Positions 4,793 to 36,909 of a DNA stretch of 64,000 nucleotides are shown here, piece by piece. Location of the stretch: NCBI GenBank assembly GCA_030584185.1, contig CP129495.1, positions 496,001 to 560,000 on the forward strand. The letters are read 5' to 3'. Under the pieces are notes generated by a model, which searched no databases, was not told the origin of the DNA, and saw only the letters and a program-made list of their open reading frames with translations. This DNA comes from Acidimicrobiia bacterium (GTDB lineage Bacteria; Actinomycetota; Acidimicrobiia; Spongiisociales; UBA11373). The position numbers were made by a program, and so were the translations under genes. Position 1 is the first letter of the stretch. Each line of letters starts with the position of its first letter.

Positions 4793-5767
4793 TCAGGGGG
4801 CGGCTAGAGCGCCCAGTGCCCGTTCGACGAAGACCGCCGCCATCCACTTTCGGTAGCGAGAACCGAGGTCGGCGTTGTCGAACGGTCGCACCGGCTTGGC
4901 GGCCAGCTCGGCGGCGGCGGCGATCGTCTCCCGATCGAGCCGGCGCCCCAGGAGAAGGGCCTCGGCGTCGACCGCCCGCAACGGAGCCGGCGAGACGGCG
5001 CCGAGCACGATCCGAGCGTCCGACACCGTGCCGTCCTCCGCCAGCCGGACTCCGGCGGCCACGCCCAGCATGGGGAAGTCGACAGCCTGGCGACGGCGCA
5101 GCTTCAGGTAGGTGGTGCGGAGGCCGGCGGCCGGCGGCACCAGCACCTGGGTGAGTATCTCGTCACGCCTCCTGGCCATGTGGTCGATCCCGTCGGGCCG
5201 GTAGAGATCCGAGACCGGAAGCACCCGCTCCCCCGCCGGCCCGACCAGGCGTACCGACGCCCCGGACACGATCGCAGCCGGTGCCAGGTCGGATGACGAG
5301 ATGGCGTAGCAATGGCTGCCCTTCGGAGCCACCCAGCAGACGTCTCCGCCGGCCTTGAGGCACGGTCCGGAGGCCGTGCGCCACTCCTCGGTGACGTTGA
5401 TGAAGGCGCATCGGGTATCCACACACAGGTTGCCGCCGATGGTGGCGGTGTTGCGGATCTGGGGCGACGCCACCAGGGCGGCGGCCTCCCGCATCGCCGG
5501 CGACACCTCGGTCGAGTCGGCCACCTGGGCCAGCGGTGTCGACGCCCCGATCACCGTTGTCCCATCGGAGGCGGTGTCGATCCCGAAAAGCCCCGGGATC
5601 CTCGCCAGCGACACCAGCACCCCCGGGTGCACCTGGCGGCGCTTCATGTTGGGAAGCAGGTCGGTTCCGGCACCCACGGGCACCGACCCGGGATGAGCGG
5701 CGAGCATCTCCAGGGCTTCCCCCACACTCGCCGGGAAGAGCACCTCGAAGGCGGGGAGCCGGATCAC
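4793..5767 (-). CDS. hcrB: 4-hydroxybenzoyl-CoA reductase, FAD and extra [4Fe-4S] subunit
   Basis: 324-aa FAD-binding subunit of the xanthine oxidase family (FAD segment VPVGAGTDLLPN near residue 30, ATIGGNLC near 108). It carries the loop that marks HcrB within this family: Cys120, Cys136, Cys144 and Cys153. The spacing of 16, 8 and 9 residues is the one I recall for the [4Fe-4S] ligands of the Thauera enzyme (Cys122, 138, 146, 155). This cluster lets the enzyme run as a low-potential ferredoxin-dependent reductase removing the para hydroxyl of 4-hydroxybenzoyl-CoA. The start overlaps the hcrA stop by 4 bp. Last gene of the operon starting at 11315. Confidence 0.93.
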   Translation of the reverse strand: MIRLPAFEVLFPASVGEALEMLAAHPGSVPVGAGTDLLPNMKRRQVHPGVLVSLARIPGLFGIDTASDGTTVIGASTPLAQVADSTEVSPAMREAAALVASPQIRNTATIGGNLCVDTRCAFINVTEEWRTASGPCLKAGGDVCWVAPKGSHCYAISSSDLAPAAIVSGASVRLVGPAGERVLPVSDLYRPDGIDHMARRRDEILTQVLVPPAAGLRTTYLKLRRRQAVDFPMLGVAAGVRLAEDGTVSDARIVLGAVSPAPLRAVDAEALLLGRRLDRETIAAAAELAAKPVRPFDNADLGSRYRKWMAAVFVERALGALAAP

Positions 5768-8136
5768 GCCGAGAACCCTTCGGGCGGGTCGACGGAGATC
5801 ATGCGGCCGTAGTCGAACTCCGGGATGGCTTCCGGTCCCACCCTCCCGGCGCCCCCCTTTGCCAGATCGCGCAGTGCTCGCACCACCTTGTCCGGCGTGA
5901 TCGGGACCTCGTCGATACGAACTCCCAAGGCGTCGTGGATGGCGTTGGCGACCGCGGGGATCACCGGGAGCAGCGGCCCCTGGCCCACCTCCTTGGCCCC
6001 GAACGGCCCCTCTGGATCGTCGGTCTCCACGATGATCGACTCCACCGGCGGCATGTCGAGGAAGGTGGGCATCTTGTAGTCGAGCAGCGATGGCCCCCGG
6101 TGGAGGGCGTCACGAAAGGCGTGCTCCTCCATCAGGGCCTCCCCCAGGCCCATGTACACACCGCCCTCGATCTGCCCTTCGACCAGGGTGCGATTGAGAG
6201 CGCGACCGACGTCGTGGGCCAGCCAGACCCGGTCCACGGCGACCATCCCGGTGTCGGGGTCGCAGGTGACCTCGACCACCGCCGCCGAGTAGGAGTACGC
6301 CGGCGAGATGCCGACGCCGGAGCCCTTGTAGGGCCCGGCGAGCTCGGGTGCCCGGTACTCGCCCGAGGTGGAGAGGGGGCCGGAACGGGCCACGGCGGCC
6401 CTCACCGCCTCCTCCCACGACATCCCCTTCTCCGGGTCGCCTTCCATCGAGATCCTGCCGTCCTCGGCCACCAGGACGTCGGGGCTGGTGCCCAGCTCGG
6501 CCGCCACCGCCTCGAACACCAGGTTCCGCATCTTCCCGGCGGCATCCAGGGCGGCGTTGCCCGCCATGAAGGTGACCCGGCTCGAGTATGAGCCCAGGTC
6601 GACCGGGGTGAGGTCGGTGTCGGCGGTCACCACCGCCAGGCCGCTCGGATCCAAGCCGAGCACCTCGGCGACGATCGTGGCCAGCATCGACGTCGAGCCC
6701 TGGCCGACGTCGGCGGCCATCGAGAACACGGTGACCCCGCCGCCGCGGTCCACCTTGATGTTCACCTCCGACTGGGGCATGTCGTTGAAGTAGATGGGGA
6801 GCCCCGCACCGGAGAGATAGGCCCCGACGGCGAGGCCGACACCCCGTCCCGCCGGCAGCCGACCGTGCTTCTCGGTGAACCCCGAAGCCTCGACGACCCG
6901 ATCCAGGCACTCGGCGAGCCCGCAGGAGGTGATGCGCAGGTGGTTCACCGTCATCGTGAACGGCTCCACCAGGTTCCGCCTCCGGATGGTCACCGGGTCG
7001 ATCCCCAGGTCCTCGGCGGCGGCATCCAACTGGCATTCGATGGCGAACCTCGGCTGAGGAGTGCCGTGCCCCCGCTTGGGGCCGCACGGCGGCTTGTTGG
7101 TGAAACAGCGCACGCCCTCGAAGCGATAGGCGGGGATCCGGTAGGTGGAGGTCTGCAGGGCGCCGGTGTAGTAGAGGGTCGCCGCTCCATACGACCCGAA
7201 GGCCCCCCCGTCGAGATGGGTCCTGAGGTGGGCGGCGGTGATGGTCCCGTCCGACTTGAAGCCGGTACGGAGCCACATCAGCACCGGATGACGGCCGCGA
7301 TGGGAGTAGAAGACCTCCTCGCGGGTCAAGGTGATCTTCACCGGCCGCCCGGTCTCCATCGAGAGGCGGGCGGCGGCGATCTCGTGGGAGAAGGGGTCGG
7401 TCTTGCCACCGAAACCGCCGCCCACGGGCGTGGCCACGACGCGGATCCGGCCGGTTGGCATCTCCAGGACCCGGGCGAGGGTGCGATGCAGGTAGTGCGG
7501 CACCTGGGTCGAAGACCAGATCGTCACCCGCCCGTCGGGCCCGTGCGACGCCACCGCGCAGTGCTGCTCCAGGGCGGCGTGGGTGTTTCCCAGGAAGTCG
7601 TAGAGGTCCTCGCGAATGTGGTCGGCCTCGGCGAACCCGGCATCGACGTCCCCGAACTCGAGGGCGGCCCGGCGGTGCACGTTGCGACCGGAGCCGTCCC
7701 CGTGGATCAGGAGGCGATCGGAGCCGGCGTCGAACACCGAGAGGGTCTCCTCCAACGGCTCGTACTCGACTTCGATCAGGGCCAGCGCCCGGGCGGCGGT
7801 CTCCGGATCCCGGGCGGCAACGGCGGCGACCGGCTCGCCGACGTAACGAACCCGGTCGAGAGCCAGGGTGTGCTCGTCCTGGCTCACCGGGAGGATTCCG
7901 AAGGTGATGGGAAGGTCGGCGCCGGTGATCACCGCCTCCACCCCATCCAGGGCGCGCGCCCGGGAGGTGTCGATCCTCACGATCCGGGCGTGGCCGTGAG
8001 GGCTGCGCAACAGCCGGCCGACGAGCATCCCGGGAAGCGAGATGTCGTCGGCGAACACGGTGCGTCCCGTCACCTGCAGACCGGCGTCGACCCGAGGCCG
8101 CCGGGTGCCCACCACCGAGAACCCATGACCCTCCAT
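5764..8136 (-). CDS. hcrA: 4-hydroxybenzoyl-CoA reductase, molybdenum-binding subunit
   Basis: 790-aa molybdopterin subunit of the xanthine oxidase family. Substrate-pocket and cofactor segments include [15 protein letters not shown], the loop [17 protein letters not shown] seen in 4-hydroxybenzoyl-CoA reductases, and the C-terminal [12 protein letters not shown] with the catalytic Glu region. The CO dehydrogenase active-site loop (AYRCSFR) is absent. Start at ATG 8136, which overlaps the hcrC stop by one base; an upstream in-frame extension has no family sequence. Together with HcrB and HcrC it should dehydroxylate 4-hydroxybenzoyl-CoA to benzoyl-CoA in the cytoplasm, feeding the ring-reduction genes at 19.5-28 kb. 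Confidence 0.92.
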
Positions 8137-8603
8137 CACCCCTCCTCGGCGGCGAGATGGACGGCGTCGAGGATCTTGGAGTACCCGGTGCAGCGGCACA
8201 GGTTCCCGGCAAGCGCCTCCCGAATCTCATCCGTGGTCGGCGACGGGACCCGCTCCAGCAGACCGGTGGCGGCCATCAGCATGCCGGGGGTGCAGTACCC
8301 GCACTGAGCGGCGCCCAGTTCGGCAAACGCACTCTGCAGGGGACTGAGCACTCCACTGGTCTCCAGGCCTTCGACGGTTCGCAACTCCCGGCCTTCGACC
8401 GAGCGAGCGAGCGTGAGGCAGGACAGCACCGGCACACCGTCGATCAGGACCGTGCAGGCGCCGCACTCCCCCAGCTCGCAGCCGTGCTTGGTTCCGGTGA
8501 GGCGGAGGTCTTCGCGCAGCACCTCGAGCAGCGTCCGGTGGTCTTCGACCAGGACCTGGTGTTCGTCACCGTTGACGCGGAGTCGGAGAGGGCGACGGGT
8601 CAT
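8136..8603 (-). CDS. hcrC: 4-hydroxybenzoyl-CoA reductase, [2Fe-2S] subunit
   Basis: 155-aa subunit with two [2Fe-2S] clusters. The plant-type cluster uses Cys42, 47, 50 and 62 (CELGECGAC...C) and the second, helical domain uses Cys101, 104, 136 and 138 (CGYC...CRC), the full set for this family. ATG 8603 overlaps the prpF stop by 4 bp (ATGA), which settles the start. It carries electrons between the HcrB FAD/[4Fe-4S] and the HcrA molybdenum centre. Confidence 0.93.
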
Positions 8604-9742
8604 GTCCCCGACGGGACCCGCTCGTCGCGGCGAACGAAGGTGCGACCTTCGGCGAGCCTGCGGGCGGTGCGGTCGTACGAGGCCTGTTCCACGACCCATC
8701 CGTCGCCATCGGGGAGGACCCGCCCCACGGCCTCCATCATCCCCGAGGTGTGGCCGATCCGGTACAGGCCGTCGGGTGCCGGCCGGGTCACCTCGGCTAC
8801 GACGCTTCCGGGGAGGCAGGCGGCAACGGCGGTACAGGCACCGACCGTTCCCGGATAGGCCTTGTGGAGCATCGGCGGGCGACCACCGATCACCCTCGCC
8901 ACCAGGTCTACGTCGGCGGCGGCGATCCGCTCGCCGGACCCGTACGCCGTGTACTCGACCGGCGAAGCCACCATGGTCGGGATCGGTGTCAGGCCGTCGA
9001 AGGACACTCCGATGAGGCGGGCGGCGGCCTCCTTGACCGCCTGCACCGCCGAGAGGTCGGTGGTGTCACCGGGCGACTCGGCGCCGGTCATCCCCACCGC
9101 CGAGGCAGCCACGAAGACGCACAGGTTGGCCAGGTCGACGATGGTGGCGTCCACCGGGCCGAACTCGGTCTCGAGGCGGTCGCGGGTGTTCCCGGTGGGA
9201 AGAAGCGCCCCGGTGAGCCCTCCCGCCGTGCGGCTGTAGTCGAGGGCGATGGCGGCGCCGGTCCCGGGGACTCCGTCCATGGCGAACTCGCCCCGGACGG
9301 CGGCCTTCCCGTTGCGCACCGGGACCCGCGCCACCAGCACCCGCGAGGTGTTGGTGTTGTGGATGCGCACGACGGTCACCGGCTCCACCACCGGCACCAG
9401 GCCTTCGTCCACTGCGAACGACCCCACCGCCGCCGAGATGTTGCCGCAGTTGATGTCGTAGTCCACCACCGGCTCGGTGATGCTCACCTGGCCGAAGGTG
9501 TAGTCCAGGTCGGCGCCGGGGATGCTCGGGGGGCCGATCACCGCCAGCTTCGAAGTGAGGATGTCGGCGCCACCGAGCCCGTCCACCTGGCGAGGATCCG
9601 GGCTGCCGAACACCTCGAGGACGAGGCGGTCACGCTGCACACCGAAGGGCGGCAGGTCTTCGCTCTTCAGGAACACGGCCTTGCTGGTGCCGCCGCGCAT
9701 CAGCACGAAGGGAAGGGACCGCTGCTCGGCCCCGTCGCTCAC
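8600..9742 (-). CDS. PrpF-family allylic isomerase (methylitaconate isomerase-like)
   Basis: 380 aa, GTG start overlapping the thiolase stop by 4 bp. It begins with the PrpF signature FVLMRGGTSKAVFLK, and continues with DINCGNISAAVGSFAVDEG, as in PrpF, methylitaconate delta-isomerase and 4-oxalomesaconate tautomerase. The diaminopimelate-epimerase-like fold moves a double bond between two allylic positions of an unsaturated di- or tricarboxylic acid, for example methylitaconate to dimethylmaleate. There is no prpB, prpC or acnD nearby, so the usual 2-methylcitrate role is unlikely. In my proposal it converts benzylmaleate to phenylitaconate. Being locked between thiolase and hcrC by overlaps, it must work in aroyl-CoA metabolism. 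Confidence 0.85.
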   Translation of the reverse strand: MSDGAEQRSLPFVLMRGGTSKAVFLKSEDLPPFGVQRDRLVLEVFGSPDPRQVDGLGGADILTSKLAVIGPPSIPGADLDYTFGQVSITEPVVDYDINCGNISAAVGSFAVDEGLVPVVEPVTVVRIHNTNTSRVLVARVPVRNGKAAVRGEFAMDGVPGTGAAIALDYSRTAGGLTGALLPTGNTRDRLETEFGPVDATIVDLANLCVFVAASAVGMTGAESPGDTTDLSAVQAVKEAAARLIGVSFDGLTPIPTMVASPVEYTAYGSGERIAAADVDLVARVIGGRPPMLHKAYPGTVGACTAVAACLPGSVVAEVTRPAPDGLYRIGHTSGMMEAVGRVLPDGDGWVVEQASYDRTARRLAEGRTFVRRDERVPSGT

Positions 9743-10881
9743 TTCACCAACACCTGCACCGTGCACGCCGCCCCTTCGATGCCGACCGCCTTGCCGCCAC
9801 GACAGTGTGCCAGACCGACGCGGGCACCTTCGATCTGACGCTCACCGGCCTCACCCCGCAGCTGGCGCACCAGCTCCACCACCTGAGCCACCCCGGTGCC
9901 GCCGAGAGGATGGCCCTTGCCGATCAGCCCTCCGCTCGGGTTGATCGGAAGCCGTCCGCCGATGTCCGCCTCGCCACGCTCCACGGCGGCGGGATACCCA
10001 CCCTGAGGGAACAGGCCCAGGCCTTCGACACGCAGCACCTCGGCGATGCTGAAACAGTCGTGAACCTCGGCGAAGTCGACGTCCTCGGGACCGATCCCCG
10101 CCTTCTCGTACGCCGCCTCGGCGGTCTTGCGGGTGAGGGGCTCGAAGGTCATCGAGGTCGGCTCGGTCTCCACCGATCCGGTGAAGAGGGTCGAGGCGGC
10201 GAGCCGGACCGCACGCCCGTTGCCAAGGCGCTTGAGCATGCGATCACTCACCAGGATGGCGGCGGCGGAGCCGTCGGTGACCGGCGAACAGTCGAGAAGG
10301 TTGAGGGGGTCGGCGATGGGGCGCGATTCGATCACCTCTTCGATCGTGATCTCCTTGCGGAAGTGCGCCAGCGGGTTGGCGGCGGCGTGGCGACGGTTCT
10401 TGACCGCCACCGCAGCCAGCTGCCGGCGGGTCATCCCGAACTCCTCCATGTAGCGACGGGCCCGCATGGCGTACACCGAGGGCATGGTCGCCCCCACGGC
10501 CGCCTCGGGATCGCTGGGATCCGGGGTGAGCGCCCCGGCGAACCTCGTCGTCAGATGCTCGGTGCCGACGGCGAGCACCACGTCGTGCTCGCCGGCACGG
10601 ATGGCCAGGGACGCCTCACGGATGGCGGTGGCGCCGCTGCTGCAGGCGTTCTCGACGTTGGCCAGGGGAAGCCCGGCCATCCCCACCTGTGCCAGGATCC
10701 GCTGGCCGGTGACCATGCCCTGGAACACGTGGCCGCAGTAGGCGCCTTCGATCAGCCGGGGGTCGATGCCGGCGTCGGAGATGGCCTCGAGCAGGGCCTT
10801 GGCTCCGAGCCCGGCGGCATCGTCGTCGGGATGCTTCCCGAACCGGGTCATGCCGACGCCGATGATGTGCACGCCGGTCAC
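9739..10881 (-). CDS. Thiolase of the SCP2/BbsB type
   Basis: 380-aa thiolase. Nucleophile region VENACSSGATAIREA near residue 85, EVHDCFSIAEV near 290, and NPSGGLIGKGHPLGGTG near 335. The GTG start (10881) overlaps the stop of the DUF35 gene by 4 bp. A thiolase encoded directly after a DUF35 zinc-ribbon partner is the arrangement of benzoylsuccinyl-CoA thiolase BbsAB, where both proteins are needed. Alternative jobs are cleavage of 3-oxopimeloyl-CoA from the ring pathway or of another 3-oxoacyl-CoA. Operon context with prpF and hcr favours formation of an aroyl-CoA (inference). Confidence 0.88.
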   Translation of the reverse strand: MTGVHIIGVGMTRFGKHPDDDAAGLGAKALLEAISDAGIDPRLIEGAYCGHVFQGMVTGQRILAQVGMAGLPLANVENACSSGATAIREASLAIRAGEHDVVLAVGTEHLTTRFAGALTPDPSDPEAAVGATMPSVYAMRARRYMEEFGMTRRQLAAVAVKNRRHAAANPLAHFRKEITIEEVIESRPIADPLNLLDCSPVTDGSAAAILVSDRMLKRLGNGRAVRLAASTLFTGSVETEPTSMTFEPLTRKTAEAAYEKAGIGPEDVDFAEVHDCFSIAEVLRVEGLGLFPQGGYPAAVERGEADIGGRLPINPSGGLIGKGHPLGGTGVAQVVELVRQLRGEAGERQIEGARVGLAHCRGGKAVGIEGAACTVQVLVK

Positions 10882-11315
10882 TTGCCCTCCTCCGTTCCCA
10901 CCGGGCGGAAGCGATACCCGAACAGGGTCTCGCCGTCGTCCCCGGTCCCGAATGGTTCCACCGCCAGCTCCAGGTCCATGCCGATCTTGACCTCTTCGGG
11001 ATCGATACCGGAGATCTGGGTCATGATGCGGACACCCTCGGGAACGTCGACGTAGCCGAGGACGTACGGTACCGGGAAGGCGGGAACCGATTGGCGCACC
11101 ACGGAGAACGTGTAGAGCTTTGCCGTGGTGGAGAAACGGACGGTCTCCAGATCGGTCCCCAGACAACCCGAGCACGCCTCCCTGATCGGGAAGAAGTGGG
11201 CGCCGCAGTTGCGACACCGGCTGCCGAGCAGCCGCCCGCTGCCGTCGGGGAGGATCTCGAACTCACCCGGTCGAAAAGAGACCGGGGCCGTGTCCCGATC
11301 GGTAGCAGTCACCAT
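10878..11315 (-). CDS. DUF35 zinc-ribbon/OB-fold protein, thiolase partner
   Basis: 145 aa. A zinc ribbon with Cys-x2-Cys pairs (GSRCRNCGAHFFP and REACSGCLG) in the first third is followed by the OB-fold (YTFSVVRQSVPAFPVPYVLGYVDVPEGVRIM). DUF35 proteins form complexes with SCP2-type thiolases or HMG-CoA synthases and shape the acyl-CoA site; BbsA of the toluene pathway is one. First gene of the long minus-strand operon. ATG 11315 is listed, but a GTG at 11312 fits the GGAGG ribosome site better (5 bp versus 2 bp). Confidence 0.87.
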   Translation of the reverse strand: MVTATDRDTAPVSFRPGEFEILPDGSGRLLGSRCRNCGAHFFPIREACSGCLGTDLETVRFSTTAKLYTFSVVRQSVPAFPVPYVLGYVDVPEGVRIMTQISGIDPEEVKIGMDLELAVEPFGTGDDGETLFGYRFRPVGTEEGK

Positions 11316-11423
11316 CGCCTCCTCAGTCTGTTCGGGGTGGCTTGGAACCCCGTCGCCGGTCGGTGTCGGTGGGCGGGTCGACGCGACCGAGGCGCGCCCG
11401 GTGGCCACCCGACACCCCGACAG

Positions 11424-11674: not shown

Positions 11675-12925
11675 ATGGCCGAGACCGACCGACAGCGCGA
11701 GGACGAGCTCCTCTACGACTGGAACCTGAGTGGCGGGAACGCCCCGCAGCGGCCCACCACCGTGGAACTCGACGACGAAACCCTACGCGACGGCCTGCAG
11801 AGCCCGTCGGTGCACCAGCCCGGTCTCGACCAGAAGCTCGAGATCCTCCACGCCATGGCACCCCTCGGGATCAAGTACGTCGACATCGGTTACCCCTCTG
11901 CCAGCCCGGTGATGTTCTCCGACGTGGTCGGGCTCGCCCGGGAGATCGCCGCCGCCGGGCTCGACATCGAGGCCAACTGCGCCGCCCGCTCCCACAAGAA
12001 CGACATCCTTCCCATCGCCGAGGCGCAGCAGCAGTCGGGTGTGCCCATCGAGGCGTCGATCTTCCTCGGCTCCAGCCCGATCCGGCAGTACGTGGAGGGC
12101 TGGGACCTCGACTTCCTCCTCCGCACCACCGAGGAGGCGGTGAAGCTGGCCCGGGGCGAGGGGCTGGAGGTGATGTTCGTCACCGAGGACACCACCCGCG
12201 CCCATCCCGACGTTCTGCGGCAGGTCTACAAGGTTGCGATCGAGTCCGGTGCGCGCAGGATCTGCCTCTCGGACACGGTCGGTCACGCCACTCCCTGGGG
12301 GGTCCGCTCCCTGGTCCGGTTCGCCCGCGAGCTGGTGGCCGACACCGGCGCCGAGGTGAAGGTGGACTATCACGGGCATCGCGACCGAGGGCTCTCGGTG
12401 ATGAACTCGCTCGCCGCCCTGGCCGAGGGCGCCAACAGGGTGCACGGATGCGGCCTCGGCATCGGAGAACGCTCCGGCAACACGCCGATGGAGCTGCTGC
12501 TGGTCAACCTCAAGCTGCTGGGATGGCTCGACGCCGACCTCACCGGGCTTCCCACCTACTGTGACGCCGTGTCTCGCGGCACCAAGACCCCGATCGCCCG
12601 CAACACCCCGGTCGTGGGCAGCGACGCCTTCGAGACCAGCACCGGGGTGCACGCCGCAGCCGTGCTCAAGGCCCTGCGCACCGGCGACGTCTGGCTCGCC
12701 GACCGCATCTACAGCGGGGTGCCGGCCGCCGAACTGGGCCGACAACAGTCGATCACCGTCGGGCCGATGAGCGGGCAGGCCAATGCGGTCGCCTGGATGA
12801 TGCAGCACGACCTGGAGCCCGACGAAGGGACGGTGGAGCGCATCCTCGCCGCGGCGAAGGCCTCCGACCACGTCCTCACCGAAGCCGAGATCGAATCCCT
12901 GCTCGGGGTGGACGCCGCCTCGTGA
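11675..12925 (+). CDS. 2-isopropylmalate/homocitrate synthase family Claisen condensing enzyme
   Basis: 416-aa DRE-TIM metallolyase. Metal and substrate motifs are present: DDETLRDGLQ near residue 30, YHGHRDRG near 235 (usual form HxHND, here Arg replaces Asn), HGCGLGIGERSGNTPMELL near 255 and the STGVHAAAV segment near 325. Length is about 416 aa, so the C-terminal leucine-feedback domain of LeuA is missing. These enzymes join acetyl-CoA to a 2-oxoacid. ATG 11675 has GGAGGA 4 bp upstream; the ATG at 11663 has no such site. First gene of a plus-strand operon containing LeuC/LeuD-like subunits but no leuB, and CoA-ester genes. I propose an arylpyruvate (phenylpyruvate, 4-hydroxyphenylpyruvate) as acceptor, which is inference. 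Confidence 0.85.
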   Translation: MAETDRQREDELLYDWNLSGGNAPQRPTTVELDDETLRDGLQSPSVHQPGLDQKLEILHAMAPLGIKYVDIGYPSASPVMFSDVVGLAREIAAAGLDIEANCAARSHKNDILPIAEAQQQSGVPIEASIFLGSSPIRQYVEGWDLDFLLRTTEEAVKLARGEGLEVMFVTEDTTRAHPDVLRQVYKVAIESGARRICLSDTVGHATPWGVRSLVRFARELVADTGAEVKVDYHGHRDRGLSVMNSLAALAEGANRVHGCGLGIGERSGNTPMELLLVNLKLLGWLDADLTGLPTYCDAVSRGTKTPIARNTPVVGSDAFETSTGVHAAAVLKALRTGDVWLADRIYSGVPAAELGRQQSITVGPMSGQANAVAWMMQHDLEPDEGTVERILAAAKASDHVLTEAEIESLLGVDAAS

Positions 12926-13524
12926 GCGACGACACCCCCGACACGTCCGAGCGGATCCGCCGGGCGGCGGCGCGCCTGTTCCGGACCCGGGGCTTCAACG
13001 GCACCTCGATGGCGGACCTGGCAGCCGAGGTGGGCATCACCAAATCGAGCCTGTATCACCACTTCCCCAGCAAGCAGGCCCTGCTCTCGGAGATCATCGA
13101 GTTGACCATGGGAAGGGTCACCCCTCTCGTCGAGGACGTGGCCGGCTCGAATGCGCCGGCGGCCGAGCGCCTGCATCGGGCGCTCACCCTCCACACCAAG
13201 GCGACCCTGATCGACCGCGACTACGTGGCCTGCTTCATCGAGGAGGGGCGATACCTGGCTCCCGAGTTCATGGAGGCGCATCTGAAGAAGCGGGACGCCT
13301 ACGAGCGCAACTTCCGCCGCATCCTCGAGGACGGCATCGCCTCCGGGGAGTTCCTTCCCCACGACGCCCGGATCTCGGCGATGGCCCTCCTCGGCATGTG
13401 CAACGCCTCGGTGCGCTGGTACCGGCCCGAAGGGGACCGAACCCCCGACGAGATCGCCCGCCAGTTCGCCGACCTGGCGGTGAGGGGCGTGGCGGCGCAG
13501 CAGGCGGTGGGGGCCAAAGCCTGA
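12922..13524 (+). CDS. TetR-family regulator of the catabolic operon
   Basis: 200 aa. N-terminal HTH with the TetR pattern [27 protein letters not shown] and [11 protein letters not shown] (residues about 10-60); the C-terminal ligand domain is unassigned. GTG start overlaps the synthase stop by 4 bp, and its stop overlaps the next start by 1 bp. Its position inside the operon makes it the best candidate for the protein that reads the three 20-bp repeats, probably releasing them when it binds an acyl-CoA intermediate (inference). Confidence 0.9.
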
Positions 13525-14747
13525 TGCCGGGTCCGCTCGAAGGCATCGTCGTGCTCGACCTGTCCCAGGGGGCGGCCGGGCCCACCTGCGCCATGCACCT
13601 GGGCGACATGGGAGCCGAGATCATCAAGGTGGAACCGCCTGGGGGTGAATGGGGTCGCGGCCTGGGGCCGCCTTTCCTCGACGGTGTGGCCGCCTCGTTC
13701 CTGGGCATGAACCGCAACAAGCGAGGTGTGGTCGTCGACCTCAAGGAGCCCGGTGGCGCCGAGGTGCTGCTGCGGCTGGCCGAGGGCTGCGACGTGGTGA
13801 TCGAAAGCTTCCGACCCGGCGTCGCCGACCGGCTCGGCATCGGGTACGAGGCGATGTCCGCCCGCAACCCGCGCCTGGTGTACGCCGCCATCTCGGCGTT
13901 CGGGCAGTCGGGCCCCTGGCGGGACCGGCCCGGCGTCGACGGCGTGGCCCAGGCCATGAGCGGGATCATGAGCGTCACCGGAACCGCCGACGGGCCCCCG
14001 GTCAAGGTGGGGGTTCCCGCTGCCGACATGGCGGGCGGAGCCTTCACCTCGCAGGCGCTGTTGGCGGCCCTGGTGGCACGGGGCCGGACCGGAGTCGGGC
14101 AGCGGGTGGACGTCTCTCTCCTCGACTCGCTGCTCGCCTTCCAGGTGGTGCCGCTCTCGATGTTCTTCGCCGAGGGCGTGCCTCCCCGGCGTCTGGGAAG
14201 CGCCGCCCCGTACGCCGCTCCCAACGAGGCGTACCCCACCAAGGACGGGTTCATCATGGTGGCTGCCTACACCCCCACCAGATGGCCCGCACTGTGCGGT
14301 GCCATCGGCATGCCCGAGCTGGCGACAGATCCCCGCTTCGACGACAACGCAAAACGCGTCGTGGCCCGCCGCGACCTGGCCGAGGTGCTGGAACCGGTGT
14401 TCCGCACCAGGACCACCAAGGAGTGGATCGAGATCCTCGACGCCGCCGACATCCTCTGTGGGCCGCTGCTCTCCTACCCGGAGTTGATGGCCGAGGAGCA
14501 CGTGGCGACCGGAGAAGCCGTCGTCGCCGTGGAGCATCCGGTCGTGGGAACGGTGCACAGCACCACCGCCCCCGGGCGGTTCTCGGCGACCAGGCCCGGC
14601 CCCGGCACGTCGGGCCCGGTCCGGCCCGGCGAGGACACCGTCGCCGTTCTCCGGGAGCGCGGCTTCGGAGAGGACGAGATCGCCAGACTGTTGGCCGACG
14701 GGGTGGTACACGACCCCGGGAAAGGAGCAGAGAACCATGACGGATGA
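13524..14747 (+). CDS. Class III (CaiB/BaiF) CoA-transferase
   Basis: 407 aa, full length for the family. N-terminal [11 protein letters not shown] and [13 protein letters not shown] near residue 30, [12 protein letters not shown] near 64 and the catalytic aspartate Asp168 in [11 protein letters not shown], the place of Asp169 in formyl-CoA transferase. It moves CoA from a donor such as succinyl-CoA to a carboxylic acid. Toluene degraders use two such subunits (BbsE, BbsF) to make benzylsuccinyl-CoA. Here a single gene is present, followed by a hydratase and an SDR exactly as needed after activation of an itaconate-type acid. ATG 13524 shares one base with the tetR stop. Confidence 0.9.
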
Positions 14748-15543
14748 GACATCGGTCGAAGAGCTGGTTCGGTTCGAGATCGTGGAGGAGGGCATCGGGG
14801 TGCTCACCCTCGACCGGCCCGAGGCGCTGAACGCCCTCACCGTCCCCATGCTGGAGCGGATGCGCGACCTGCTCCAGGCCATCGGGTCCAACCCGGGGAT
14901 CCGGGTCCTGGTGCTTCGGGCCGAGGGCGAGAAGGCGTTCTGCGTCGGTGCCGACCTGAAGAGCCGGGCCGCCGAGTACGAGGCGGGAACCGTGCACGAT
15001 CCGCTGGGCCTCCTGGTGCGCCAGGTGTTCTCGGGCCTGGAGAACCTCAACGTGCCAGTGATCGCCGCCATCCAGGGGTACGCCCTCGGGGGCGGCATGG
15101 AGATGGCACTCGGATGCGACCTGCGGGTGGCCGCCGACACCGCCAAGGTGGGATTCCCCGAGGCGAAGGTGGGAAGCCTCCCCGGGGCCGGCGGAACCCA
15201 GCGCCTCACCCGACTGGTGGGCCCAGGGTTCGCCAAGGAGATGATGTTCACCGGCGATCAGTTCGACGCCGCCACCGCCCTGCGGATGGGCGTGGTCAAC
15301 CGGGTGGTCCCCGTCGCCGAACTCCAGGATCGAGTGATGGAGATGGCCCGTACCATTGCCTCCCGGGCGCCGCTGTCGCTGGACCGGATCAAGGCGCTCA
15401 TCAATCGGGCGCCGGACATGGACATCGAGTCGGGTCTCGACTTCGAGTCCACGTCACATGCGGTGTTGCGGGCGAGCGAAGATCGCAAGGAGGGGATCCA
15501 GGCCTTCGTGGAGAAGCGCCCGCCCCAGTTCAAGGGACGTTGA
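14737..15543 (+). CDS. Enoyl-CoA hydratase/isomerase (crotonase family)
   Basis: 268-aa crotonase. [15 protein letters not shown] (oxyanion-hole region, about residue 66), [17 protein letters not shown] (about 110) and [19 protein letters not shown] with the acidic residues used by hydratases (about 140). Overlaps the CoA-transferase end by 11 bp, with AAAGGAG upstream of the ATG. The context suggests addition of water to an aryl-itaconyl-CoA type ester (BbsH role). A role in ordinary beta-oxidation cannot be excluded by sequence. Confidence 0.88.
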
Positions 15544-15553
15544 GGAGGACGGC

Positions 15554-16300
15554 ATGAACGTGAAGGATCGAGTCGCCATCATCACCGGTTCCGGCCAGGG
15601 CATCGGCGCCGGCATCGCCGCGGTGCTGGGGCGGGCCGGAGCCAAGGTGGTCGTCAACGACCTGGCGGCGGACCGGGTGGAGTCGACGCGGTCGGCGCTG
15701 GAAGCCGAGGGTGTCGCCGTCGCCGGAGTCGCCTCCGACATCTCCACCGCCGACGGTGCCGCCGCCCTGGTCCAGGGCGCCATGGACGCCTTCGGCAGCG
15801 TCGACATCCTGGTCAACAACGCCGGGATCGCTCGCGACAAGTACCTGGTGAAGATGTCCGAGGAGGACTGGGACGACGTGTTGCGGATCAACCTCAAGTC
15901 GCAGTTCCTGTGCGTACGGGCTGCGGCTCCCCACATGATGGAGCAGAAGTGGGGCCGGATCATCAACATCTCGTCGCGTGCCTGGCTGGGCGGGCCCGGC
16001 CAGTCCAACTACGCCGCCTCGAAGGGCGCCGTGATCAGCCTGACCCGCTCGCTCGCCCTGGAGATGGCCCGCTACGGGATCACCGCCAACGCCATCGCCC
16101 CGGCACTGGTCGACACCCCGTTGTTCCAGGGTCTCGCCGATGACGTCAAGGAGCGCCTGGTGAAGACGATCCCGTTGGGTCGTGTCGGCCAGCCCGAGGA
16201 CATCGGCAACGCCGTCTTGTTCTTCGCCGCCGAGGAATCCTCATACGTCACCGGTCAGACCCTCTACGTGTGCGGCGGTCGCAGCCTCGGGGCCGGATGA
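15554..16300 (+). CDS. Short-chain dehydrogenase/reductase
   Basis: 248 aa, FabG-like SDR. NAD(P) motif TGSGQGIGAG (residues 11-20), NNAGIARD near 87, catalytic SSR...YAASK near 137-157, and typical C-terminus VTGQTLYVCGG. Acidic residue after beta-2 (VVNDL) points to NAD. GAGGAGG lies 5 bp before the ATG. It should oxidise the 3-hydroxyacyl-CoA made by the preceding hydratase to a 3-oxoacyl-CoA, the substrate for the thiolase at 9739 (inferred pairing, as BbsCD before BbsAB). Confidence 0.88.
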   Translation: MNVKDRVAIITGSGQGIGAGIAAVLGRAGAKVVVNDLAADRVESTRSALEAEGVAVAGVASDISTADGAAALVQGAMDAFGSVDILVNNAGIARDKYLVKMSEEDWDDVLRINLKSQFLCVRAAAPHMMEQKWGRIINISSRAWLGGPGQSNYAASKGAVISLTRSLALEMARYGITANAIAPALVDTPLFQGLADDVKERLVKTIPLGRVGQPEDIGNAVLFFAAEESSYVTGQTLYVCGGRSLGAG

Positions 16301-16313: not shown

Positions 16314-17564
16314 ATGCCGATGACGCTTGCCGAGAAGATCCTGGCGCGAGCCGCCGGGCGCGACTCGGTGAAGGCCGGGGAGTTCGTGGTCGCCGACGTC
16401 GACCTGGCGCTGGTACACGACATCTTCGCCGCCCGCGTCTTCGACACCCTGCGCAAGGTCGGGTTCGACAAGGTCTGGGATCCGGACAAGGTGGCGGTGG
16501 TGATCGACCACATGGTCCCGGCTCCTACCGCCGAGGCCGCCGACGTCCATCACCGGATCCGTGAGCACGTGAAGCGTCTCGGCATCGGCACCTTCTACGA
16601 CTCGGGTGAGGGCATCTGCCACCAGCTGCTCCCCGAGCAGGGGCACGTCAGGCCGGGCATGCTGATCGTGGGAACCGACTCCCACACGACCACCTACGGC
16701 GCCCTGGCGGCGGCCGGCACCGGGATCGGCACATCGGAGATGGTGTACGCCATGGCCACCGGCCGGCTCTGGTTCCGGGTCCCGGAGACCCTGCGCTACG
16801 AGTTCTCCGGGGCACTCCAGCGGGGAGTCTCGTGGAAGGACGTCATCCTCCATCTGGCGGGAACGTTCGGTTCGGACGGCGCCCAGTACCGCTCCATGGA
16901 GTTCGGCGGGCCCGGAGTGGCCACGGCCGATGTCTCCAGCCGGCTCACCGTGAGCAACATGGCCCTCGAGATGGGGGCCAAGTTCGGCCTGTTCGCCGCC
17001 GACGAGATCACCGCCGAGTACCTGGGCGAGGCGGACACCTCGTGGGCGCCCGACCCGGGAGCCGCCTACGAGGCGGTGCACCAGATCGACCTGAGCACGC
17101 TGCCTCCCCAGGTGGCCCTCCCCCACGACGTGGGGAACGTGACCGCGGTCTCGGATGCCGCCGGCATCGTCATCCACCAGGCCTTCATCGGATCGTGCAC
17201 CAACGGGCGCATCGAAGACCTGCGGGCGGCGGCGGCGGTGCTGGCCGGGCACAAGGTGGCCCCCGGTGTGCGTCTCGTGGTGGCTCCCGCCTCGCGCAGC
17301 GTGCTGCTGAAGGCGATCGAAGAGGGCGTGGCGGAGACCCTGGTACAGGCGGGCGCCTCGATCCTCGCTCCGGGCTGCGGGCCCTGCTTCGGCGGCCATG
17401 GCGGGCTCCTCGGACCGGGCGAACGCTGCATCGGCACCCACAACCGCAACTTCATCGGCCGCATGGGCAGCGCCGAAGCCGAGATCTACCTCGCCTCTCC
17501 GGAGACGGTGGCCGCCTCGGCGATCGCAGGCACGATCACCGACCCGCGAGAGATACAACGATGA
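16314..17564 (+). CDS. Aconitase-superfamily dehydratase, large subunit (LeuC/DmdA-like)
   Basis: 416 aa, the size of the short LeuC2/homoaconitase/2,3-dimethylmalate dehydratase large subunits. [4Fe-4S] ligands Cys295 (GSCTNG), Cys355 and Cys358 (GCGPC) are present; GTDSHTTTYGALAAAGTGIG near 120 binds substrate carboxylates. ATG 16314 has GGGGAG 7 bp upstream. With the small subunit it removes or adds water on a 2- or 3-hydroxy diacid. Without leuB nearby it is not a leucine gene by context. I propose 2-benzylmalate to benzylmaleate. Confidence 0.88.
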   Translation: MPMTLAEKILARAAGRDSVKAGEFVVADVDLALVHDIFAARVFDTLRKVGFDKVWDPDKVAVVIDHMVPAPTAEAADVHHRIREHVKRLGIGTFYDSGEGICHQLLPEQGHVRPGMLIVGTDSHTTTYGALAAAGTGIGTSEMVYAMATGRLWFRVPETLRYEFSGALQRGVSWKDVILHLAGTFGSDGAQYRSMEFGGPGVATADVSSRLTVSNMALEMGAKFGLFAADEITAEYLGEADTSWAPDPGAAYEAVHQIDLSTLPPQVALPHDVGNVTAVSDAAGIVIHQAFIGSCTNGRIEDLRAAAAVLAGHKVAPGVRLVVAPASRSVLLKAIEEGVAETLVQAGASILAPGCGPCFGGHGGLLGPGERCIGTHNRNFIGRMGSAEAEIYLASPETVAASAIAGTITDPREIQR

Positions 17565-18070
17565 GCGAGAACATGATCCGGGGACGCGTGTGGCGTTTCG
17601 GCGACGACATCAGCACCGATCTCCTCTCCCCCGGGCAGTTCGCCCTGGACCCTCTGGAGGTCCGCATGCGCCATGTCCTGGAGTCGATCAACCCTTCCTT
17701 CGCCCAGGACGTGAAGCCGGGAGATGTGGTCGTCGCCGGTGCCAACTTCGGTTGTGGCTCGTCACGCGAGACCGCCGCCGAGAACCTGAAGGCCCTGGGC
17801 GTGGCCTGTGTCGCCGCCGGGTCCCTGTCCCGGATCTTCATGCGCAACGCCATCGCCGTCGGGCTCCCGATCCTGATCTGTCCGGGCATCGGCGATGCCT
17901 TCGCCGAGGGTGATCCGATCGAGATCGATCTGGCGGCGGGTACGGCAACCAACACCGCGACCGGCACCACGTGTACCGGCGAGGCCCTGCCCGAGGAGAT
18001 GAGACGGATCCTCGCCGCCGGAGGGATCCTCGAGGTGCTGCGCCTCGACGGCGGCACCCGACCGGGCTGA
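17561..18070 (+). CDS. Aconitase-superfamily dehydratase, small subunit (LeuD/DmdB-like)
   Basis: 169 aa swivel-domain subunit, with the GRVWRFGDDISTDLLSPGQF start and the NFGCGSSRETAAENLKALG loop that sets substrate choice (residues about 63-82; the recognition loop of LeuD usually has YLRM or YLVA near residue 30 to 35, here PGQFAL). ATG overlaps the large subunit stop by 4 bp. Forms a heteromer with the preceding gene product. Confidence 0.88.
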   Translation: MSENMIRGRVWRFGDDISTDLLSPGQFALDPLEVRMRHVLESINPSFAQDVKPGDVVVAGANFGCGSSRETAAENLKALGVACVAAGSLSRIFMRNAIAVGLPILICPGIGDAFAEGDPIEIDLAAGTATNTATGTTCTGEALPEEMRRILAAGGILEVLRLDGGTRPG

Positions 18071-18101
18071 GATCCGCCGAGCGCTACAGTCCAGCGCAGT
18101 G

Positions 18102-18770
18102 ATGGCCGCTCGCTCCGACAGCGACGCCACGGTCCGCACGAGGTTGGAAGACCTCCTGGAGGTTCTGGGGCGAACCGACGATGCCATGGTCGCAGTCGAC
18201 GGCGATCTGCGCATCGTCGGCTGGAACGCGGCCGCCGAGCGGCTCCTCGGATACACCACCGCCCAGGCGATGGGACGATCCTGTCACGAGGTCCTCGCCT
18301 GGCGCGATCGCTGCGGCGACGGCATCTGCGGGCCCGAGTGCCCGGCCGCCGGGCCCGGCGATCCCGACGAGATCGTGGCGACCACCGAGGTGATCGGACG
18401 AACCGCCGCCGGACGCAGCCTGTGGCTCACCGCCACCAGCATCGTCCCGCCGCCTGAGATGCGATCCGAGTGCCGAATGATCCACCTGGTGCGCGAGGTG
18501 GGGCTCCCACCAGAACTGGAACGCCTGGTGGTGGAGCGCCTCTCCGGCTGGAGCCCGGCCATCGCCGCCGATCCGCGCCTGGAGACCCTCACCCGACGCG
18601 AGCGGCAGGTGCTCGAGCTCCTGGCCGACGGTCTCGATGGCGCCTCGATCGCCGAGAAGCTCTTCGTCTCCCCCGCCACGGTGCGCAACCACGTGCAGCA
18701 CATCCTGCGCAAGCTGCAGGTCCACAGCAGGCTGGAGGCGGTCTCGCTGTTCCTGCGCGGCCGGCCCTGA
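18102..18770 (+). CDS. PAS domain - LuxR-type response regulator
   Basis: 222 aa. An N-terminal PAS domain (about 20-130: MVAVDGDLRIVGWNAAAERLLGY) holds a cysteine cluster, CHEVLAWRDRCGDGICG then PEC, with four cysteines within about 25 residues. The C-terminal LuxR HTH (about 155-222) reads LTRRERQVLELLADGLDGASIAEKL. There is no receiver domain, so the PAS part is the likely sensor of redox state, oxygen or an aromatic ligand. It starts 31 bp after the leuD-like stop (ATG 18102; a GTG 3 bp earlier is possible) and may be the last gene of that operon. Confidence 0.85.
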   Translation: MAARSDSDATVRTRLEDLLEVLGRTDDAMVAVDGDLRIVGWNAAAERLLGYTTAQAMGRSCHEVLAWRDRCGDGICGPECPAAGPGDPDEIVATTEVIGRTAAGRSLWLTATSIVPPPEMRSECRMIHLVREVGLPPELERLVVERLSGWSPAIAADPRLETLTRRERQVLELLADGLDGASIAEKLFVSPATVRNHVQHILRKLQVHSRLEAVSLFLRGRP

Positions 18771-18789
18771 CCCGTCCCACGCCGGGAGA

Positions 18790-19359
18790 TCAACCGCCGG
18801 CCGGGTAGGCCTTCATCAGATCGGCAGCGAGCATCACCAGGTCCTGACGGGTCCGACCCTCGAACGAGCGCCCGGCAACGGCGTCATAGGCACCGCACAG
18901 GCGGAGGCCCTCGCTCCCCGGAATCACCTGGTCGGCCATCTCGAAGACGATGTTGTCTTCCTTGCCGATGTGGGAGCGGATGAGATCGACGTAGGCCCGT
19001 CCCGCGGACAGCAGCGAGGCGACAGCCCCGGCGTCTCCCCGGCCCAGCTCGTCGAGCGACTCGGCCATCTGCCGGATGTGAGCCCGGCCCAGGCCGTGCT
19101 CGTAGAGCATCACCGCGATCGGCCCCCCATCGGTCGGAATCCCCTGACTCTCCATCTCGGGGAAGAGCAGGTCCTCCTCCTTGGCGTGATGGAAGGCGTC
19201 GACGAAGAGGCGAAAGAAGGCGACGCATCGATCGAAGGTGACCAGATCCGGCTCCTTGCCTTTCTCCGCCGCCGTGGTAATGGCATCGAGCACTTCCGTG
19301 ACCTGGAGGATCAGCCGATGCTCTTCGCGGAGGCGCTCGGTCGGGGTCTCGGGTGGCAT
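18790..19359 (-). CDS. Hemerythrin-like HHE domain protein
   Basis: 189 aa. A four-helix diiron protein: REEHRLI (helix A His), FHHAKEEDLLFPEM (His-x3-Glu), EHGLGRAHI, and HIGKEDNIVFEMA give the His/Glu ligands in family order. Such proteins bind oxygen, carry it, scavenge it or report on it. Convergent with the PAS-LuxR gene (20 bp apart) and divergent from had. In a cluster built around the oxygen-sensitive benzoyl-CoA reductase, oxygen sensing or protection is a reasonable guess. Confidence 0.88.
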   Translation of the reverse strand: MPPETPTERLREEHRLILQVTEVLDAITTAAEKGKEPDLVTFDRCVAFFRLFVDAFHHAKEEDLLFPEMESQGIPTDGGPIAVMLYEHGLGRAHIRQMAESLDELGRGDAGAVASLLSAGRAYVDLIRSHIGKEDNIVFEMADQVIPGSEGLRLCGAYDAVAGRSFEGRTRQDLVMLAADLMKAYPAGG

Positions 19360-19516: not shown

Positions 19517-20572
19517 ATGTCAGAACGCTTTTCCTGGCGCCTCGTCGAGGCGGGCAAGCCGCTGCAGCGACACGATGCCGCCGGACACGCCCCCGGGGCC
19601 GGAGAGGTCCTCGTCGAGGTCGCCGGATGCGGTGTCTGCCACACAGACGTCGGGTTCTGGGAGGGATCGGTCCGCACCCGGGGCGACCTCCCGATCACGC
19701 TGGGACACGAGGTCTCCGGAACCGTCGTCGAGGCCGGTGTCGGGGCCACGGAGTGGGTCGGCCGCCAGGTGCTGGTGCCTGCGGTGATCCCCTGTGGCGA
19801 GTGTGACCTGTGCCTGGCCGGCCGCGGCAACGCCTGTACCCGCCAGGTGATGCCGGGCAACGACATCGACGGGGGCTTCGCCTCCCACCTCACGGTTCCC
19901 GCCGGCTACCTGACCGAGATCCCGATGCTTCCCGAGGGCCACACCCTGGCCGACTTCGCAGTGGTGGCCGATGCCGTCACCACTCCCCTGCAGGCGGTGC
20001 GTCGCGCCCGGGTGGCCGCCGGCGACCTGGTGGTGGTCATCGGCACCGGCGGGATCGGCACCTACGCCGTGCAGATTGCCGCCGCATCGGGCGCCAAGGT
20101 GATCGCCATCGATCTCGATCCGGCCCGGCTCGACCCGCTGACATCGCGAGGGGCGGCGGCCACCATTTCGGCGGGCGGCCTCGACGCCCGGGCGGTGAAG
20201 GACCGGGTTCAGGAGATCGCCTCGGAATGGAACCTGGCCCGGCATGGCTGGAAGATCTTCGAGTGCTCTGGGCACCCGGCCGGTCAGGAGACCGCCTTCG
20301 GCTTGCTGGGCACCGCCGCCACGCTGGCCGTGGTCGGGTTCACCCGGGAGAAGGTGTCGATTCGCCTCTCCAACCTCATGGCGTTCGACGCCGACGCCTT
20401 CGGCACCTGGGGCTGCCCGCCCCATCTCTACCCCGAGGCGGTGGGCCTGGTCGCCACCGGGAAGGTCGAGGTGCTTCCCTTCACCCGCAAGGTCCCCATG
20501 GACGACGCCGAGGAGGCGCTCGCCCAAGCGGCGGCCGGGACCGACCCCCGCCGCATCATCCTGGTTCCCTGA
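19517..20572 (+). CDS. had: 6-hydroxycyclohex-1-ene-1-carbonyl-CoA dehydrogenase
   Basis: 351-aa zinc-type medium-chain dehydrogenase. CGVCHTDVGFWEG and GHEVSGTVVEAG hold the catalytic zinc residues; CGECDLCLAGRGNAC gives the structural zinc site; GTGGIG near residue 176 binds NAD. The stretch MPGNDIDGGFASH is typical of Had among this large family. It oxidises the hydroxyl introduced by Dch in the benzoyl-CoA pathway. AGGAGG lies 3 bp before ATG. First gene of the plus-strand operon had, oah, dch, SDR, tetR. Confidence 0.9.
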   Translation: MSERFSWRLVEAGKPLQRHDAAGHAPGAGEVLVEVAGCGVCHTDVGFWEGSVRTRGDLPITLGHEVSGTVVEAGVGATEWVGRQVLVPAVIPCGECDLCLAGRGNACTRQVMPGNDIDGGFASHLTVPAGYLTEIPMLPEGHTLADFAVVADAVTTPLQAVRRARVAAGDLVVVIGTGGIGTYAVQIAAASGAKVIAIDLDPARLDPLTSRGAAATISAGGLDARAVKDRVQEIASEWNLARHGWKIFECSGHPAGQETAFGLLGTAATLAVVGFTREKVSIRLSNLMAFDADAFGTWGCPPHLYPEAVGLVATGKVEVLPFTRKVPMDDAEEALAQAAAGTDPRRIILVP

Positions 20573-21683: not shown

Positions 21684-22438
21684 GCAAGGTACGTCACGAG
21701 ACGTCAGCAGGCGGGGCGGTGCACACCATCACCATGGACTCCGACCCGGGGAACGTGGTCGACATCGCCATGTGCGAGGAGCTGATCGCCGCCATCGACG
21801 AGGCGGCCACCGACCCCGAAGGCAGGGTGCTGGTGCTGCGAGGAGCGGGCCGCAACTTCTGCTTCGGCGCCAGCATCCAGGAGCACCTTCCCGACCAGGC
21901 GCCGGCCATGCTCGCCGCCATCGGCGGCGTGGTGCGCCGGCTGGTCGGGTTCCCCTACCCCACCCTGGCCGGCATCCAGGGGCGCTGCCTGGGCGGCGGG
22001 CTCGACCTGGCGATGTCGTGCGGGATCCTCGTCGCCGAGGAGGGCGCCGTGTTGGGGGTGCCCGAGATCAGGCTCGGGGTGTTCCCGCCACCGGTGAGCG
22101 CCCTGCTCACCGGCCGCTCCGCCGAGGACGTGATCCTCACCGGCCGGGACATCGTCGCCGCGGAGGCGCAGGCCATCGGGATCGTCAACCGGGTGGTGCC
22201 CACCGGCACCCTCGATGAGGCGATCGCCGGCATCGTCACCGAGGAGTTCGTTCCCCGCTCGGCGGCTTCGCTGAGGATTGCCACCAAGGCGGTTCGCATG
22301 GGCCGCCTCGAGGAGGTGGAACGCCGCCTGTCCGCAGCCGAGGCGCTGTACGTGGACGAGCTGCTTCCCCTGCACGACGGCTCGGAGGGGATCCGCGCCT
22401 TCATGGAGAAGCGGTCGCCGGAATGGAGGAACTCATGA
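21680..22438 (+). CDS. dch: Cyclohexa-1,5-dienecarbonyl-CoA hydratase
   Basis: 252-aa crotonase. GRNFCFGASIQEHLPDQ is close to the Dch signature; GRCLGGGLDLAMSCGILVAEEGA and GVPEIRLGVFPPPVSALL follow. It hydrates the dienoyl-CoA product of benzoyl-CoA reductase. GTG start overlaps the oah stop; the stop overlaps the next start (ATGA). Together had, oah and dch complete the steps between the reductase and 3-hydroxypimeloyl-CoA. Confidence 0.9.
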   Translation: MSKVRHETSAGGAVHTITMDSDPGNVVDIAMCEELIAAIDEAATDPEGRVLVLRGAGRNFCFGASIQEHLPDQAPAMLAAIGGVVRRLVGFPYPTLAGIQGRCLGGGLDLAMSCGILVAEEGAVLGVPEIRLGVFPPPVSALLTGRSAEDVILTGRDIVAAEAQAIGIVNRVVPTGTLDEAIAGIVTEEFVPRSAASLRIATKAVRMGRLEEVERRLSAAEALYVDELLPLHDGSEGIRAFMEKRSPEWRNS

Positions 22439-25629: not shown

Positions 25630-25632
25630 TTC

Positions 25633-26931: not shown

Positions 26932-26942
26932 CGATGGCTCCC

Positions 26943-33005: not shown

Positions 33006-33121
33006 CGAAAACCCACGCGTTTGGCGCTTAGCGACACTTGTGGTCTCTTGACCCCGGGCTGCTAGCACCCGATTCTGCAACCACCTGCAACCGACGAGGG
33101 CGCTACGGCGCAGCGGGAGGG

Positions 33122-34363: not shown

Positions 34364-34498
34364 TGGTAGCCGCCGATGGTTGGACCTTGTGGACCTTATG
34401 GACGTTCTCACTGCTGTCACGGAGAGGATCGACCTGATCTGGGTGGTCACCCCTACACGGGCCAGCACCCAAGGAGGGTCCAGAGGTCCTCAACGTCC

Positions 34499-36900: not shown

Positions 36901-36909
36901 GCTCCAGGC

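Follow-up and report, generated by a model that had tools for sequence, protein, structure and literature searches.

What does a LeuA-like condensing enzyme do at the head of an operon set among genes for aromatic degradation? The question is raised by a 416-residue protein encoded in the window, i.e., the whole 64,000-nucleotide stretch of an Acidimicrobiia genome analyzed here. The original prediction was that the enzyme is catabolic, with an acceptor different from that of LeuA and possibly an aromatic 2-oxoacid. Taking the protein, its neighborhood, and its relatives together, we estimate a probability of about 70% that it condenses acetyl-CoA with an arylpyruvate, opening a route to (hydroxy)benzoyl-CoA and succinyl-CoA.

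Fold, metal site, and acceptor pocket of the LeuA-like protein

The frame at 11675-12925 (+ strand) translates to 416 residues and a stop. GGAGG immediately precedes position 11675, and an alternative in-frame ATG, also open, lies 12 bp upstream (11663). In profile searches, the best matches are the LeuA, NifV, and LysS models, with every score far under its cut-off. The LeuA models cover the catalytic part only (NF002085, 195.7 against a cut-off of 517 bits; TIGR00973, 156.9 against 598.7), and neither the homocitrate synthase (LysS/NifV) model (178.3 against 462.9 bits) nor the citramalate synthase model (105.4 against 450 bits) reaches its threshold. An AlphaFold2 model built on a 29-sequence alignment (mean pLDDT 92.7) consists of a LeuA-type TIM barrel with accessory helices, and the regulatory domain is absent. 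Translation, profiles, and model thus bear out the original prediction that the protein ends, near 416 residues, before the LeuA regulatory domain. The closest solved fold is a homocitrate synthase with its regulatory domain deleted (6ktq, Z = 43.6), followed by methylthioalkylmalate synthase (MAM; 6e1j, Z = 41.8). Isopropylmalate synthases are also close, and Z-scores against members of the LeuA-like (DRE-TIM) acyltransferase superfamily span 36-44. Neither 6ktq nor 6e1j has the LeuA regulatory domain, but the LeuA-like protein is 25-28% identical to them and lacks the 2-oxoglutarate pocket residues.

A changed metal motif had also been claimed, and residues 233-237 do read HGHRD where LeuA has HxHND. 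The metal ligands, which in this superfamily we take to be the Asp of DETLRDG (D34), H233, H235, and the Asn of GERSGN (N269), are nonetheless intact, and invariant in all 29 aligned relatives. R38 and E171 are likewise invariant, so that the protein has the metal site and the catalytic Arg and Glu by which the DRE-TIM superfamily is recognized. The residue after the second His is the sole change in the motif relative to LeuA; this position (R236) is Arg in 23/23 proteins encoded in the gene cluster described below, and R, Q, M, or N in six stand-alone relatives. A missing regulatory domain is normal for homocitrate synthases (HCS), NifV, and MAM, and recurs in stand-alone relatives outside any aromatic cluster. 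Judging from these alignments, HGHRD and the missing domain are traits of the subfamily rather than signs of catabolism; HGHRD as a catabolic marker was rejected, since every metal ligand stays in place. The protein forms a new branch within an established superfamily. The two reasons originally given for a catabolic enzyme with a different acceptor fall away, whereas that conclusion itself is well supported by the gene context.

A study of HphA, a benzylmalate synthase, names five side-chain positions of the acceptor pocket, which are A73/D157/A159/M186/S242 in HphA, H/R/T/S/H in HCS, and L/E/S/N/E in isopropylmalate synthase (IPMS) (PMC12961565). By alignment, the LeuA-like protein has A103/M167/V169/C197/H257. 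The His and Arg with which HCS holds the distal carboxylate of 2-oxoglutarate are replaced by A103 and M167, and the Leu/Glu/Ser/Asn/Glu of IPMS by A/M/V/C/H. Compared at the published positions, the match to HphA is one in five: A103 corresponds to the specificity residue A73, whereas M167/V169/C197/H257 differ from D157/A159/M186/S242. Citramalate synthase presumably carries a Tyr where this protein has V169. A pocket matching homocitrate or citramalate synthases, which would speak against the original prediction, is therefore not what we find (A103, M167, V169), though H257 is HCS-like. These residues suggest a pocket that is enlarged and hydrophobic. Such a pocket backs an aryl acceptor without proving it, because stand-alone relatives that lack the cluster have nearly identical pocket residues, with consistent differences at Y73 and H107 only. 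Similarly, Ala 103 is compatible with an aryl acceptor but is not proof of one, since the Ala-to-Leu variant of HphA (A73L) retains activity with 4-hydroxyphenylpyruvate.

The best profile matches, the HCS-like H257, and the linked LeuCD genes would also suit a leucine (2-isopropylmalate), isoleucine (citramalate), or lysine/NifV (homocitrate) enzyme lying by chance in an aromatic island. We regard this as quite unlikely, given the low profile scores and the altered HCS His/Arg and IPMS Leu/Glu positions. The conserved gene set includes no LeuB-type dehydrogenase, and a separate canonical LeuA occurs in several cluster genomes capable of branched-chain amino acid synthesis. Searches of the genome under study found no IlvC, no canonical LeuA, and no LysW, and on these results a role in leucine, isoleucine, or lysine biosynthesis was rejected; for leucine, the absence of IlvC excludes it there. 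Its only aconitase-family proteins above cut-off are AcnA and the cluster LeuC.

The operon, its neighbors, and the proposed pathway

The LeuA-like gene opens a tight operon of co-directional genes, with few-base overlaps at the LeuA-like/TetR, TetR/CaiB, CaiB/ECH, and LeuC/LeuD junctions. Divergent from it run genes for BbsA-like, BbsB-like, Mii/PrpF-like, and HcrCAB-like proteins, followed by IorA, IorB, KorA, and KorB. The features are (scores in bits):

11675-12925, +: LeuA-like DRE-TIM condensing enzyme, 416 aa; proposed arylpyruvate (benzylmalate-type) synthase
12922-13524, +: TetR-family regulator; shares 4 bp with the end of the LeuA-like gene
13524-14747, +: class III (CaiB) CoA-transferase; proposed succinyl-CoA:phenylitaconate CoA-transferase
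14737-15543, +: enoyl-CoA hydratase (ECH); proposed phenylitaconyl-CoA hydratase (BbsH role)
15554-16300, +: SDR; proposed hydroxybenzylsuccinyl-CoA dehydrogenase; best solved structure BbsD 7pcs_B
16314-17564, +: LeuC/homoaconitase-family large subunit; proposed benzylmalate dehydratase; TIGR01343 539 against cut-off 386
17561-18070, +: LeuD/DmdB-family small subunit; TIGR02087 159.6 against cut-off 109
10878-11321, -: BbsA-like DUF35 zinc-ribbon thiolase subunit; best solved 7pxp_A, benzoylsuccinyl-CoA thiolase
9739-10881, -: BbsB-like thiolase; proposed benzoylsuccinyl-CoA thiolase; best 7pxp_C 295.8, runner-up 254
8600-9742, -: PrpF/Mii-family isomerase; proposed benzylmaleate to phenylitaconate isomerase
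8136-8603, -: 4-hydroxybenzoyl-CoA reductase-like gamma subunit; 194 against cut-off 258
5764-8136, -: 4-hydroxybenzoyl-CoA reductase-like alpha subunit; 875 against cut-off 995
4793-5767, -: 4-hydroxybenzoyl-CoA reductase-like beta subunit with four-cysteine loop; 273 against cut-off 404
2302-4116, -: indolepyruvate ferredoxin oxidoreductase (IOR) alpha, IorA; 681.9 against cut-off 650.9
1443-2309, -: IorB with C-terminal ferredoxin-type cysteine region; 196.6, best family IOR beta
304-1443, -: 2-oxoacid:acceptor oxidoreductase alpha, KorA; 571 against cut-off 411
2-301, -: KorB, portion within the window; KorG and a PaaK-like ligase come next, just beyond its left end
19517-20572, +: Had, 6-hydroxycyclohex-1-ene-1-carbonyl-CoA dehydrogenase; 427 against cut-off 339
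20583-21683, +: Oah, 6-oxocyclohex-1-ene-1-carbonyl-CoA hydratase; 548 against cut-off 464
21680-22438, +: Dch-like cyclohexadienecarbonyl-CoA hydratase; best family, 194 against cut-off 293
23999-28118, -: four class I benzoyl-CoA-reductase-like subunit genes; best families, under cut-offs

The best families and structures for the CaiB protein are succinate-type CoA-transferases. The SDR matches BbsD 7pcs_B at 249.8 bits, a near tie with the runner-up at 245.5, and LeuC retains its CxxC and third Fe-S cysteine. Despite their best solved matches, the BbsA- and BbsB-like proteins do not reach the equivalog cut-offs (79.9 against 250 and 324.7 against 750 bits). Neither does any of the three reductase subunits; the best solved relative of the beta subunit is nevertheless a 4-hydroxybenzoyl-CoA reductase, and in the beta-subunit loop, 4/4 Fe-S cysteines align with 1rm6_B. 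In the dearomatizing benzoyl-CoA pathway, both Oah and Had pass theirs.

These assignments provide one linked gene per step for a route whose carbon balances (C9 + C2 = C7 + C4). The LeuA-like enzyme would condense acetyl-CoA with phenylpyruvate, or with 4-hydroxyphenylpyruvate where reductase genes are present, to form 2-(hydroxy)benzylmalate. The linked LeuCD-type enzyme would dehydrate 2-benzylmalate to benzylmaleate, and an allylic shift of the double bond by the Mii-like isomerase would yield phenylitaconate (benzylidenesuccinate), which the CaiB enzyme would convert to the CoA ester with succinyl-CoA as CoA donor. Following hydration by the enoyl-CoA hydratase and oxidation of the alcohol by the BbsD-like SDR, the benzoylsuccinyl-CoA would be thiolyzed by the BbsAB-like pair to (4-hydroxy)benzoyl-CoA and succinyl-CoA, the latter of which could feed the CoA-transferase. 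The 4-hydroxyphenylpyruvate branch would end in 4-hydroxybenzoyl-CoA, on which the linked reductase would act; this reductase and the benzoyl-CoA pathway would take the products onward. By analogy with Thauera, KorAB may provide reduced ferredoxin to the ring reductases.

Most likely, then, rings derived from phenylalanine, tyrosine, or phenylacetate enter by a conserved pathway that is apparently undescribed in bacteria. It would be a new combination of known chemistry, all of its substrates and reactions being predicted from profile and structure search identities, operon structure, conservation of the set, missing competing routes, and pocket residues. The aromatic 2-oxoacid acceptor proposed originally gains support from the gene context and is compatible with the pocket, as a predicted substrate. 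The open-access papers searched include none with both benzylmalate and benzoyl-CoA, or with both benzoylsuccinyl-CoA and phenylpyruvate, which is weak evidence of novelty.

Individual segments have known counterparts. The proposed reaction of acetyl-CoA with (4-hydroxy)phenylpyruvate and the Ala at the key pocket position are shared with HphA of homophenylalanine/homotyrosine synthesis, which, however, is anabolic, its product going to homologated amino acids (PMC12961565). The dehydration and isomerization recall DmdAB (dimethylmalate hydratase) and Mii (3-methylitaconate isomerase) of nicotinate fermentation, with the same pairing of a LeuCD-family hydratase and a PrpF-family isomerase in alkylmalate/alkylmaleate/alkylidene-succinate chemistry. 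The solved structure nearest to the cluster isomerase is indeed 3g7k, a 3-methylitaconate isomerase (336.6 bits, against 196 for 2-methylaconitate isomerase), but in the proposed pathway the compounds would carry a benzyl group and the reactions would lead from the malate to the itaconate type. The remainder resembles the bbs module of anaerobic toluene degradation, in which CoA transfer, hydration, oxidation, and BbsAB thiolysis lead through phenylitaconyl-CoA to benzoyl-CoA and succinyl-CoA. Phenylitaconate arises from benzylsuccinate there, whereas here it would arise from benzylmalate, without a glycyl radical enzyme and without need for a BbsG-type dehydrogenase.

The BbsAB- and BbsD-like best matches could also mean that these genes degrade benzylsuccinate from toluene, the LeuA-like gene being incidental; indeed, a 2025 paper on marine UBA5794 Acidimicrobiia read bbsA and bcrBC as toluene degradation (PMC12008989). 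We consider this highly improbable here. The PFL-like glycyl radical enzyme family (PF02901) was not found in 11/11 cluster genomes, with control genomes positive; this leaves them no benzylsuccinate synthase and excludes the fumarate-addition route for toluene. Moreover, the LeuA-like, LeuCD, and isomerase genes are as conserved as the thiolase, yet have no role in toluene degradation. The published toluene reading of these genes may need revision, and the arylpyruvate pathway, if true, would explain such finds in uncultured Acidimicrobiia.

Also quite unlikely is a variant in which the same pathway serves indolepyruvate or another bulky hydrophobic 2-oxoacid, yielding the matching acyl-CoA and succinyl-CoA. 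The IOR models do carry the indolepyruvate name, and A103, M167, V169, and C197 could fit several bulky hydrophobic groups, but the linked 4-hydroxybenzoyl-CoA reductase and benzoyl-CoA genes indicate phenyl and hydroxyphenyl groups.

Three further features of the window were noted. Between LeuCD and Had (18099-19359), inspection of the sequence reveals a LuxR/PAS-type regulator and a hemerythrin-like gene, perhaps for oxygen or iron sensing. Beside the aromatic island (33038-49165), a phage-type integrase and IS3-like, IS30-like, and Mutator transposases, with GC down to 63-65%, hint at a mobile region. A HisC-like gene (28888-29979) passes the plain hisC cut-off (286.5 against 276.6) and is not claimed as an aromatic aminotransferase.

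Possible origin of the arylpyruvate

The linked IOR either makes the arylpyruvate from arylacetyl-CoA by reductive carboxylation or removes it. Reductive carboxylation is suggested by the linked PaaK-like ligase, found in this genome as well as in L011, L012, L014, and G007, and by fusions to IorA, itself an enzyme of arylpyruvates, the LeuA-like and IorA sequences forming a single open frame of 1061-1069 residues at three loci (L015, L016, L026). In the genome under study, this direction is favored because the PaaK-like ligase is linked and no other route for phenylacetyl-CoA was found. The anaerobic Pad route (PadBCD, PadEFGHI) begins with the same compounds and ends in benzoyl-CoA, and aerobic PaaABCDE begins with the same compounds too, but the whole-genome search returned no PadG above cut-off and no PaaA/PaaC family, which is present in several other cluster genomes. 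No PadB-like enzyme was recognized among the two molybdopterin (PF00384) proteins, whose matches are NuoG and an alpha subunit of the type II DMSO reductase family. On these searches, phenylglyoxylate and epoxidase routes were rejected for this genome. No aminotransferase belongs to the conserved gene set.

More tentatively, with the odds somewhat against the full sequence of steps, the PaaK-like ligase would form arylacetyl-CoA, IOR would convert it to arylpyruvate, the LeuA-like enzyme would add acetyl-CoA, and a radical-free bbs-like module would release aroyl-CoA and succinyl-CoA. If so, the arylacetyl side chain would become one carbon shorter without an oxygenase or a Pad-type molybdenum enzyme, and with no net redox change.

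The fusions and the PaaK linkage place arylacetyl-CoA beside the enzyme, as would also be expected if arylacetyl-CoA (from IOR or PaaK) were the nucleophile and a small 2-oxoacid the acceptor. In such a methylcitrate-cycle-like scheme, LeuCD and a PrpF-type isomerase would form an aryl-isocitrate analog and a second oxidoreductase an arylglyoxylate; the PrpF family does partner aconitase-type enzymes in methylcitrate cycles. However, CaiB, ECH, SDR, and thiolase would be left without a job, and because four linked enzymes stay unused we rank the scheme lower, as very unlikely. In addition, the aryl-bearing carbon would hold a carboxylate and give no aroyl thioester via β-oxidation, the isomerase is nearer to 3-methylitaconate than to 2-methylaconitate isomerase, and KorA is not PadG-like. 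The arylpyruvate pathway, if true, would join Pad and Paa as the third route by which phenylalanine, tyrosine, or phenylacetate reaches central aromatic metabolism, and would assign a catabolic role to a LeuA-type enzyme.

Conservation of the gene set

A genome scan gave 34 loci, with the LeuA-like gene inside the cluster in 23 (some on short contigs that give a partial view) and outside it in 11. The set recurs in Actinomycetota and Bacillota and is not found around stand-alone homologs. Because Acidimicrobiia arrange these genes in a different order from the other lineages, the linkage is not a matter of mere recent descent. Ten loci with long flanks carry all of IorAB, KorAB, CaiB, ECH, SDR, and BbsAB. 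These flanks also take in the isomerase and LeuCD genes, except that L016, L019, and L022 have them on the same contig, and that those of L023 (a near-copy of L022), and LeuD of L007 and L008, are beyond the stretch covered. The LeuCD genes of G009 sit next to a bcr-like set and to boxB and boxC, which pass their cut-offs at 777.7 and 821.4 bits; this arrangement independently marks benzoyl-CoA as the product.

Within its own class, the LeuA-like gene occurs in 31/395 genomes (20/184 genera), and BbsAB or IorA lies within 1.5 kb of it at all 29 other class loci examined. In its own family, the distribution is patchy, with the gene in only three of the listed genomes. All 11 cluster genomes tested carry the isomerase, whereas none of the four stand-alone genomes G011-G014 does; G015 and G016 give a weaker partial match. 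A quick tree separates cluster from stand-alone proteins, the split itself being weakly supported. For metagenome annotation, the linked gene set is a clean marker.

Stand-alone homologs without the cluster occur in Gemmatimonadota, Planctomycetota, and Acidobacteriota (L017, L018, L024, L027, L029, L030). IlvC was not found in the stand-alone genomes tested (G011-G014), and LysW is above cut-off in G014 only. In Eremiobacterota, two LeuA-like homologs form a tandem pair (L031:10010-12213; also L032-L035). The first protein keeps the metal site and is missing the C-terminal accessory part, whereas the second reads WSGRND/GEGCG, with both metal His lost, and keeps the C-terminal part; from these motifs, the pair resembles a single enzyme divided between two subunits that complement each other. 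Finally, a planctomycete locus (L040:2437-7271) places side by side a LeuC that shares 48% identity with that of the cluster, a LeuC-LeuD fusion, and an isocitrate/homoisocitrate-dehydrogenase-like gene, possibly a 2-oxoacid elongation set.
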